DNA of 64,000 nucleotides, from contig NZ_JANUHB010000002.1 in the NCBI RefSeq assembly GCF_024756255.1, positions 1 through 64,000 of the forward strand, written 5' to 3'. The notes below the pieces were generated by a model. It was not told the origin of the DNA and did no database searches. It saw only the letters and a list, made by a program, of their open reading frames with translations. How positions within the stretch are numbered: position 1 is the stretch's first letter; every line of letters begins with the position of its first letter. Source of the stretch: Massilia agilis (lineage in GTDB: Bacteria > Pseudomonadota > Gammaproteobacteria > Burkholderiales > Burkholderiaceae_D). Below are positions 27,620 to 62,380 of the stretch, one piece after another. Position numbers and translations under genes: made by a program.

Positions 27620-27685
27620 GTAAGCTCAATGTCAGCCCAACGTAAGATTCGCGTAAGCTTCAAGCAAGACTCGTGTAAGTTTTAC
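27620..27685 (+). promoter_or_regulatory. Six 11-bp direct repeats (GTAAG iterons) upstream of the symporter gene
   Basis: GTAAG, GTCAG, GTAAG, GTAAG, GCAAG and GTAAG begin at 27620, 27631, 27642, 27653, 27664 and 27675, each exactly 11 bases after the last. The rest of each unit is loosely conserved (consensus GTAAGCTTCAC). Direct repeats with 11-bp pitch are the usual target form of OmpR/PhoB-family response regulators. A TATATC -10 candidate at 27721-27726 has no good -35, as expected of an activator-dependent promoter. A second -10 candidate, GATAAT, is at 27734. Confidence 0.65.
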
Positions 27686-27759
27686 ATTCCACACTGCGAG
27701 ATAGCTGACGAAGGATCGGCTATATCCAAACCGGATAATTACTACACGGAGACAACACA

Positions 27760-29460
27760 ATGGCTATCACACCTGGCATGACCGCCGGTGGAAAGGCAAT
27801 GCCTACCACTGCGGGGCTCACCAAGGAAGAGCGGAAAGTCATCTTCGCATCGTCCCTCGGTACCGTTTTCGAATGGTACGACTTTTACCTGTACGGCTCG
27901 CTTGCACCGATCATCGCCAAGCAGTTCTTCATTGGCGACCCCACCGTCACCTTCATCTTTGCGCTCCTGGCATTTGCGGCCGGCTTCATCGTGCGTCCGT
28001 TCGGCGCGCTGGTGTTCGGCCGCCTGGGCGACCTGATCGGACGTAAGTACACCTTCCTGATCACCATCCTGATCATGGGCGGTTCGACCTTCATCGTGGG
28101 CCTGTTGCCAAGCCACGCCTCCATTGGCGTTGCTGCGCCGATCATCCTCGTCAGCCTGCGCATCCTGCAAGGCCTGGCGCTCGGTGGCGAGTACGGCGGT
28201 GCCGCAACTTACGTGGCCGAGCACGCGCCGGAAGGCCGTCGCGGCTTCTTCACCTCGTGGATCCAGACCACCGCGACGCTGGGCCTGTTCCTGTCGCTGC
28301 TGGTGATCCTGGGCACCCGTACCGCCATGGGCGAGAAGGACTTCGCCGAATGGGGCTGGCGTGTGCCGTTCCTGGTGTCCGTGCTGCTGCTGGCCGTCTC
28401 GGTGTGGATCCGCCTGTCGATGAACGAGTCGCCGGCCTTCGCCAAGATGAAGTCCGAAGGCAAGACCTCGAAGGCGCCGCTGACCGAGTCCTTCCTGCAC
28501 TGGAAGAACGCAAAGATCGTCATCCTGGCCCTGGTCGGCCTGACGATGGGCCAGGCCGTGGTGTGGTACACCGGCCAGTTCTACGCCCTGTTCTTCCTGA
28601 CGCAGACGCTGAAGATCGACGGCCCGACCGCGAACATCCTGATCGCGATCTCGCTGGCTCTGGCCACCCCGTTCTTCATCTTCTTCGGCTCGCTGTCGGA
28701 CCGCATTGGCCGCAAGTGGATCATCCTCGGCGGTTGCCTGATCGCCGCGCTGACCTACTTCCCGATCTTCAAGGCCATCACCCACTACGGCAACCCGGCG
28801 CTGGAAACGGCGCTGAAGAACTCGCCGGTGGTGGTCGAAGCAGATCCGGCATCGTGCCACTTCCAGTTCAACCTGACCGGCACCTCCAAGTTCCCGTCCT
28901 CGTGCGACATCGCCACCGGCATGCTGACCGCGTCCTCGGTGAGCTATACGCGCGTCGATGCCGCCCCGGGCTCGCTGGCCACCATCAAGGTGGGCGACAA
29001 GGTCCTGCCGTCGTTTAACGCGGCCATGACCCCGGACGGCCTGAACTTCGACCAGGCGTCGAAGGACAAGGAAGCCGCGCTCAAGAAAGATGTGGGCGGC
29101 GCGATCAAGGCCGCAGGCTACCCGGCCAAGGCCGATCCGGAGCAGATCAACAAGCCGATGGTGGTGCTGTTCCTGTTTATCCTGGTGCTGTACGTGACCA
29201 TGGTGTACGGCCCGGTGGCCGCGATGCTGGTCGAGATGTTCCCGACCCGGATCCGCTACTCGTCGATGTCCCTGCCCTACCACATCGGTAACGGCTGGTT
29301 TGGCGGCCTGCTGCCGACCACGGTGTTCGCGCTGGTGGCGTTCAAGGGCGACATCTACTACGGCCTGTGGTATCCGATCGTCATCGCTGCCATCACCTTC
29401 GTGATCGGCGCGCTGTTCGTGCGTGAAACCAAGGACAACGACATCTACGCTGCGGACTGA
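27760..29460 (+). CDS. MFS metabolite:H+ symporter with a large periplasmic insertion
   Basis: A 566-residue MFS transporter of the metabolite:H+ symporter (MHS) family, related to ProP, ShiA and KgtP. It has FEWYDFYLYGSLAPIIA in TM1, GRLGDLIGRK between TM2 and TM3, RILQGLALGGEYGGAATY in TM4 and SDRIGRKW between TM8 and TM9. Typical members have about 430-450 residues. The extra length is a hydrophilic stretch at about 340-464 between TM9 and TM10, predicted to be periplasmic, with two cysteines near 366 and 382 that could pair. The substrate is likely an organic acid or betaine. Expression probably depends on the upstream 11-bp repeats; a strong terminator follows. Confidence 0.9.
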   Translation: MAITPGMTAGGKAMPTTAGLTKEERKVIFASSLGTVFEWYDFYLYGSLAPIIAKQFFIGDPTVTFIFALLAFAAGFIVRPFGALVFGRLGDLIGRKYTFLITILIMGGSTFIVGLLPSHASIGVAAPIILVSLRILQGLALGGEYGGAATYVAEHAPEGRRGFFTSWIQTTATLGLFLSLLVILGTRTAMGEKDFAEWGWRVPFLVSVLLLAVSVWIRLSMNESPAFAKMKSEGKTSKAPLTESFLHWKNAKIVILALVGLTMGQAVVWYTGQFYALFFLTQTLKIDGPTANILIAISLALATPFFIFFGSLSDRIGRKWIILGGCLIAALTYFPIFKAITHYGNPALETALKNSPVVVEADPASCHFQFNLTGTSKFPSSCDIATGMLTASSVSYTRVDAAPGSLATIKVGDKVLPSFNAAMTPDGLNFDQASKDKEAALKKDVGGAIKAAGYPAKADPEQINKPMVVLFLFILVLYVTMVYGPVAAMLVEMFPTRIRYSSMSLPYHIGNGWFGGLLPTTVFALVAFKGDIYYGLWYPIVIAAITFVIGALFVRETKDNDIYAAD

Positions 29461-62123: not shown

Positions 62124-62200
62124 TGGCGGAGCGGACGGGGCTCGAACCCGCGACCCTCGGCGTGACAGGCCGATACTCTAACCAACTGAGCTACCGCTCC
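62124..62200 (-). tRNA. tRNA-Asp (anticodon GTC), copy 2
   Basis: A 77-base cloverleaf including the encoded CCA: acceptor GGAGCGG/CCGCTCC, D-loop TAGCTCAGTTGGTTAGA, anticodon loop CTGTCAC with GTC, and T-arm GGGTTCGAGCCC. It is identical to the copy 18 bases upstream. Confidence 0.97.
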
Positions 62201-62218
62201 AAATTCTGTCGTATCTTG

Positions 62219-62295
62219 TGGCGGAGCGGACGGGGCTCGAACCCGCGACCCTCGGCGTGACAGGCCGATACTCTAACCAACTGAGCTACCGCTCC
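62219..62295 (-). tRNA. tRNA-Asp (anticodon GTC), copy 1
   Basis: A 77-base gene identical in every position to the neighbouring copy, with CCA encoded. Both lie between hupB and ppiD and were probably duplicated in tandem; they form one transcript ending at the 62083-62117 terminator. Confidence 0.97.
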
Positions 62296-62380
62296 ACAAA
62301 AATACTTGCTGCATGTTCGGTGGCGGCCCGAGGCTCTGCACGCCAAACATTCTCGCTGCTGTCACAGCAGCGAAGAAGCA

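Follow-up and report, generated by a model that had tools for sequence, protein, structure and literature searches.

The first 64,000 nucleotides of contig NZ_JANUHB010000002.1 of Massilia agilis (the window) include a gene for an MHS-family symporter, and just upstream of this gene are six GTAAG-like cores in tandem, one every 11 base pairs (bp). From comparisons with related genomes, we consider it very probable that these cores are the class II activator sites of a regulon for the uptake and activation of acetate or short-chain acids, and that they are read by a TctD/PmrA-like response regulator. (In a class II promoter, the activator's site stands in place of the -35 element, at a fixed distance from the -10 element.)

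Table. The array, its predicted promoter, and the symporter gene (positions in the window).
Feature	Position	Strand	Remarks
Six-unit array of GTAAG-like cores, predicted tandem response-regulator half-sites	27620..27679	+	11-bp pitch; conserved in relatives
Unit 1, GTAAG	27620..27624	+	about -82 to -78, inferred from the -10; absent from all other regions scored
Unit 2, GTCAG	27631..27635	+	fifth contiguous unit from the promoter; no other scored region has one
Unit 3, GTAAG	27642..27646	+	fourth from the promoter; in 35/89 placed family arrays, including the window's
Unit 4, GTAAG	27653..27657	+	third from the promoter; in 71/89, as GTAAG in 69
Unit 5, GCAAG	27664..27668	+	second from the promoter; GCAAG in 69/89
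Unit 6, GTAAG	27675..27679	+	promoter-proximal, about -27 to -23; GTAAG in 89/89 placed arrays
Predicted -10 hexamer, CACACT	27690..27695	+	exactly 10 nucleotides past unit 6; CACACT in 50/89 placed family arrays
MHS-family metabolite:H+ symporter (MFS), 566 amino acids, putative regulated gene	27760..29460	+	TIGR00883 is the best NCBIfam model; Pfam Sugar_tr and MFS_1

As a preliminary description of this DNA had reported, four of the cores are perfect and two have one mismatch, and the spacing is always exactly 11 bp. We scored such combs as the number of units minus half of the mismatches. The array is the window's best comb, with a score of 5.0 at pitch 11; all other pitches from 5 to 15 gave 2.0 or less, and when the whole window was dinucleotide-shuffled 60 times, the best comb again reached 2.0. 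This confirms that the array is real and does not reflect chance at the level of shuffled sequence. Further GTAAG-N6 repeats, which the preliminary description had proposed to look for, are present in the genome of M. agilis: there are 8 exact GTAAG-N6-GTAAG pairs (and 0 for the reversed pattern), and genome-wide, the only combs of three units with at most one mismatch are the window array and a five-unit array at C28:71867.

To describe conservation we used a family set of 116 genomes, with 99 testable symporter upstream regions, and 80 named loci from overlapping taxa. (L061, which has 2 bases of upstream sequence, was left out of the symporter counts.) We place the family set in the Oxalobacteraceae with fair confidence because Pseudoduganella, Duganella, Massilia, Rugamonas, Janthinobacterium, and Telluria are the named relatives that come closest. 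We considered an array to be placed if it had at least two units and if it was followed, exactly 10 nucleotides after the last core, by a hexamer whose second base is A and whose sixth is T. By this rule, arrays were placed in 89 of the 99 family regions and in 75 of the 80 named loci, compared to 2 of 1980 trials with shuffled sequences. Similarly, the comb score was at least 2.0 in 75 of the 99 regions, while the maximum across 1980 dinucleotide shuffles was 1.5. Arrays of four units with at most one mismatch occur in 32 of the 116 genomes, and many of them lie just 5' of the symporter orthologue. Thus, the expectation that orthologous symporters in the Oxalobacteraceae would have the array was borne out.

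Among the 89 placed family arrays, 18 have two units, 36 have three, 34 have four, and only the window's has six. This is the largest number in any scored upstream region (the others have two to four); the six units are an extension of the shorter arrays that are seen in relatives. The mismatch in unit 5 is itself conserved, as GCAAG is the second core in 69 of the 89 arrays. Beyond the Oxalobacteraceae, the two-unit form predominates, often as GTCAG-N6-GTMAG.

The hexamer that accompanies the cores is probably the -10 element. In the window, CACACT (27690-27695) comes after TTTTACATTC, and unbiased column frequencies beyond the last core (A 0.97 at offset 11, A 0.95 at offset 13, and T 0.96 at offset 15) give the consensus cACACT. 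A different -10 candidate, 35 bases downstream of the array, had been proposed originally, but it is not conserved. The accompanying remark that there is no good -35 does fit: if CACACT is taken as the -10, then the last core spans roughly -27 to -23 and its neighbor roughly -38 to -34, so that the promoter-proximal cores occupy the -35 location. With two or more half-sites in direct repeat at 11-bp pitch, the array has the form of a site for OmpR/PhoB-family regulators, and with these sites in place of the -35 and a fixed 10 nucleotides to the -10 (in 89/99 and 75/80 regions), the promoter has the form of class II. Activator sites over the -35 position are the layout of PhoB-type class II activation.

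The reader of the array is most likely a TctD/PmrA/QseB-like response regulator of the OmpR family, along with its histidine kinase. The gene for this candidate regulator (C27:61668-62375) adjoins recA. It belongs to a run of genes (G000:C27:57764-62376, or L173:7764-12376) in which the kinase gene comes right after it, and which also includes genes for a DUF4212 small subunit and for a symporter of the VC_2705 type. The regulator has REC and Trans_reg_C domains; those of the kinase are 2CSK_N, HisKA, and HATPase_c. The best NCBIfam models for the regulator are TctD (241.3 bits, cut-off 337), PmrA (223.9, cut-off 330), and QseB (200.8, cut-off 345); because all three scores are below their cut-offs, we describe it as TctD/PmrA-like and not as a member of any of these families. 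Its best matches in PDB are BasR/PmrA chains.

Adjacency and co-occurrence link this regulator to the sites. In 15 of the 80 named loci, orthologues of the regulator (78-85% identity) and of the kinase (57-61%) are encoded directly 5' of the MHS symporter. (These are from nine Paraburkholderia, two Pandoraea, and one each of Burkholderia, Cupriavidus, Ralstonia, and Pigmentiphaga; at one further named locus, just the kinase is visible before the contig ends.) Judging by coordinates, 8 family genomes (G010, G020, G029, G034, G035, G036, G043, and G051) also carry the regulator gene 1.5-3.2 kilobases 5' of the symporter and in the same orientation. Furthermore, we compared all of the OmpR-family hits in three small genomes that have the array (G029, G043, and G116), and the candidate is the only regulator from M. 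agilis that is matched at 70% identity or more in all three. (G008 and G117, with 7 of 18 and 7 of 13 regulator loci sampled, were excluded from this claim.)

Using a threshold of E below 1e-100 for orthology, we found an orthologue of the regulator in 92 of the 116 genomes, paralogue-level hits only in 8, and no hit in 16. In the 95 genomes with a testable symporter (leaving out four second MHS copies), both the regulator and the array are present in 87, the regulator alone in 0, the array alone in 1, and neither in 7 (Fisher p = 7e-10, a statistic that ignores relatedness). The genome with the array alone (G007) is 73% complete. The 7 double negatives are from five genera (three from g9 and one each from g10, g15, g24, and g38). 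Within g15, the congeners of the regulator-less genome G014 retain both the regulator and the array. In a short alignment to these congeners, assessed by eye, all three cores of G014 are altered and the -10 is gone, and the sequence looks like the relic of a decayed array. The preliminary description had stated that relatives that lack the repeats and still keep the -10 would speak against it. Instead, the family genomes without the array also lack the regulator, and in G014 the -10 is missing as well.

The same module is present upstream of acetate genes. Acetate is imported by ActP and converted to acetyl-CoA by the product of acs. Of the genomes that have the regulator, 38 of 41 have a perfect pair of cores, with the hexamer at 10 nucleotides, ahead of acs; of those that lack it, 0 of 7 do. 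(This survey covered 60 genomes, 54 of which have acs; G008, G010, G021, G035, G046, and G050 were left out, being unfetched or at a contig end.) We also found the perfect pair and the hexamer at 11 of 18 DUF485-actP loci. Of the earlier proposals that the activator senses the transported substrate, carbon state, or phosphate, a link to carbon state or to the substrate is favored by the presence of the module at acs, actP, and the symporter, while phosphate is not.

In M. agilis, there are 16 pair matches in all, compared to 4 for the reversed-pattern control. When 11 sites outside of the symporter array were tested, the hexamer was present at 10 nucleotides in 3 and absent in 8. Besides the symporter, then, the spaced hexamer is found at actP, at acs, and at an acyl-CoA-synthetase-like gene. 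The last of these (G000:C1:448496-448511, in L001) has a perfect GTAAG pair and CACGAT at 10 nucleotides, and the gene is a possible further member of the regulon. In Cupriavidus campinensis, the symporter, acs, and actP all have the module. Most pairs in this genome are probably due to chance, as there are 27 matches versus 23 in the control. The hexamer was at 10 nucleotides in 3 of the 25 pairs that we examined: those of actP and acs and one at C6:88866, where a weak frame was the sole one found. The pair of the symporter itself was placed separately, by the rule used for the arrays. Another Cupriavidus site, GTAAGTTTCGGGTAAG at G118:C82:2237 (L455), is 5' of a transhydrogenase alpha subunit-like gene and does not have the spaced -10; it may be due to chance.

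The five-unit array at G000:C28:71867-71915 (L033:7868-7916) also has an 11-bp pitch. It precedes the coxB operon, for cytochrome c oxidase, overlaps the 3' end of a methyltransferase-like gene, and has GTCAGCCCA..GTAAGATT in common with the window array. We checked 30 of the 41 listed coxB places and found the array at 1 of these 30, that of M. agilis itself, so we rejected cytochrome oxidase as a core target of the regulon. At most, this array represents recruitment at the species level.

Could the same sites, with the same geometry, be read by a different OmpR-family regulator (PhoB-like, OmpR-like, or a close paralogue), with the recA-linked pair merely being co-inherited? The M. agilis genome has 19 matches to Trans_reg_C (PF00486) and several TctD/PmrA/QseB-like paralogues at around 50% identity. 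Also, we did not find an autoregulatory site: neither the 19 response-regulator loci nor the recA-regulator stretch has a GTMAG pair with 5-6 nucleotides between the cores. On the other hand, the orthologues of the recA-linked pair adjoin the symporter at the 15 named loci, the co-occurrence counts (87/0/1/7) tie the regulator to the array, and no other regulator passes the comparison of the three fully sampled small genomes. In addition, G008 has lost the array and yet retains the OmpR-like regulator (L180 type, 77% identity). Overall, we think that another reader is unlikely. The original proposal of an OmpR/PhoB-family activator that binds 11-bp repeats is supported, but PhoB and CreB, which it mentioned as binders of such repeats, most likely give way to the TctD/PmrA-like regulator.

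Several observations weigh against control of acetate genes by this regulator. First, the co-occurrence counts are not phylogenetically independent. Second, the module is not always where it would be expected. Five named loci do not fit, including Limnobacter, which has the pair but not the hexamer at 10 nucleotides. At acs, 3 of the 41 regulator-bearing genomes are misses (G017 and G036 have no pair, and G001 has the pair without the hexamer), and regulator-less G014 retains a perfect pair, without the spaced hexamer. The pair is missing from 7 of the 18 DUF485 loci, 5 of which are in genomes that have the regulator. Of the second MHS copies, 3 of 4 lack the array and 1 has it. Conversely, the cox array is confined to one genome and has no spaced -10. 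Third, because the regulator's own genes lack a GTMAG pair, there is no autoregulation to cite in M. agilis. Fourth, the symporter can be likened in kind to Deh4p and Dehp2 of Burkholderia MBA4, which are MHS-family proteins with a long extra periplasmic loop. These are MFS permeases that are capable of acetate uptake (excerpts of PMC3552994 and PMC6371555). According to excerpts of PMC3552994, they take up acetate and haloacetates, and the strain that lacks both is unimpaired in acetate uptake. If they are the nearest characterized relatives, then acetate need not be the chief substrate of the symporter.

In the mechanism that we propose, the phosphorylated regulator, from the TctD/PmrA/QseB branch, would bind GTMAG cores head to tail. 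The promoter-proximal pair would replace the -35 element, 10 nucleotides ahead of the -10, and would let the regulator contact RNA polymerase. Further units would add cooperative binding and so might tune the affinity or the strength of the promoter. The regulon would include the MHS symporter, acs, and (where present) DUF485-ActP, for the uptake and activation of acetate or short-chain carboxylates. We infer the binding, activation instead of repression, the signal, and the substrate of the symporter from these sequence patterns.

Alternatively, the repeats might be a repressor operator, or have a dual purpose, with the regulator blocking transcription. The sites do overlap the -35 position, and OmpR-family regulators can repress. 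But no -35-like element is preserved beneath the sites, the weak -10 is at a fixed 10 nucleotides in the great majority of regions (89/99 and 75/80), and in the single aligned case (G014), loss of the regulator was accompanied by decay of the -10. For these reasons we expect the promoter to depend on an activator, and we consider repression to be quite improbable.

The proposed class II sites for a TctD/PmrA-like activator can be compared to several known systems. The kinase TctE carries 2CSK_N, as does our candidate kinase, and TctD (of the tricarboxylate system TctDE) serves carboxylate uptake. TctD is also the best NCBIfam model for the candidate regulator, but the score is below the cut-off, and the neighboring genes encode an MHS symporter, or DUF4212 and an SSS symporter, instead of tctCBA. 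In the pho box and PhoB class II promoters, 11-bp direct repeats replace the -35, around 10 bp before the -10. The cores here are GTMAG instead of TGTCA, however, and the targets are acs, actP, and the MHS symporter, with no phosphate genes. ArcA has a carbon-oxidation regulon with variable numbers of direct repeats around 11 bp apart, and it represses many of its targets; the core sequence here is distinct. The PmrA box consists of two head-to-tail half-sites, such as CTTAAG, with five bp between the hexamers (excerpts of PMC3973317). This gives the same 11-bp pitch, TAAG is common to CTTAAG and GTAAG, and PmrA (BasR) is what the candidate regulator matches best in PDB. In contrast to PmrA, the core is GTMAG, there are up to six units, the link is to acetate genes and not to polymyxin resistance, and the NCBIfam PmrA cut-off is not reached.

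A system with target genes in common is CrbS/CrbR (MxtR/ErdR), which gives two-component control of acs and actP (excerpts of PMC5715377 and PMC8402216); CrbR activates both genes (excerpts of PMC5715377). These promoters might be governed by an acetate system of the CrbS/R type, like that of Pseudomonas and Vibrio. However, CrbS/CrbR has a LuxR-family regulator, an SLC5-fused hybrid kinase, and an inverted-repeat ACTU site, while here we have an OmpR-family candidate and direct repeats. Also, the frames around the five SSF matches in M. agilis encode 493, 503, 569, and 793 amino acids, and these genes are plain symporters, with no kinase fusion among the 5 matches. We rejected the CrbR/ACTU reading based on the shape of the motif, the family of the regulator, and the lack of an SLC5-fused kinase among the SSF matches, and we give a system of this type very little chance. 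In Pseudomonas, CrbS/R governs acs and actP via an inverted-repeat motif and a regulator of the LuxR type (excerpts of PMC5715377), so the TctD/PmrA-like regulator would be from a different family and have a similar job. We also considered the Burkholderia "BiofilmReg" system, but it is a different operon (excerpts of PMC5192318).

Finally, slippage can generate tandem repeats, and the two distal units are in no other scored region, but a chance or neutral repeat without function is scarcely credible: conservation, phasing, the fixed spacing to the -10, and joint loss with the regulator refute this for the proximal units, although the two distal units could be neutral.

More broadly, the chances seem about even that, in many Burkholderiales, the acetate switch is operated by a dedicated TctD/PmrA-like two-component system whose regulator is from a family unrelated to that of CrbS/R. 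The kinase and regulator would have co-evolved with the MHS symporter, and the 11-bp operator arrays would be extendable, with units gained or lost by lineage, and could be recruited to new genes, such as the cytochrome c oxidase operon in M. agilis, which would couple acetate supply to respiration. Many Burkholderiales are used to make plastics from acids or to degrade haloacids. Two-component control of acetate genes has been described in Pseudomonas and Vibrio (CrbS/R), and our literature searches, which covered open-licence papers, found no such system for Burkholderiales and no account of this array or regulon. An unexplained repeat becomes a testable regulon, with one type of site, one promoter geometry, one candidate kinase-regulator pair, and acetate genes across several families. 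The varying number of units also provides a natural series for how tandem sites set promoter strength.

As for the symporter itself, it belongs to the MFS, as Pfam's Sugar_tr and MFS_1 both match above their cut-offs. It matches TIGR00883 (metabolite/H+ symporter) in 2 stretches with 353.9 bits, which is under the curated cut-off of 443.45; an insertion between the two stretches may depress the score. Orthologues are present in 96 of the 116 family genomes. An alphaproteobacterial record, from Ancylobacter sonchi (L296), has an MHS symporter that is 74% identical and lacks the array. Relatives of that symporter are also on plasmid records of Azospirillum, Rhizobium, and others, which implies that the gene travels.

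Elsewhere in the window, Tandem Repeats Finder identified a perfect 95-bp tandem duplication at 62124-62296, which resembles a single tRNA gene, with its spacer, present twice.
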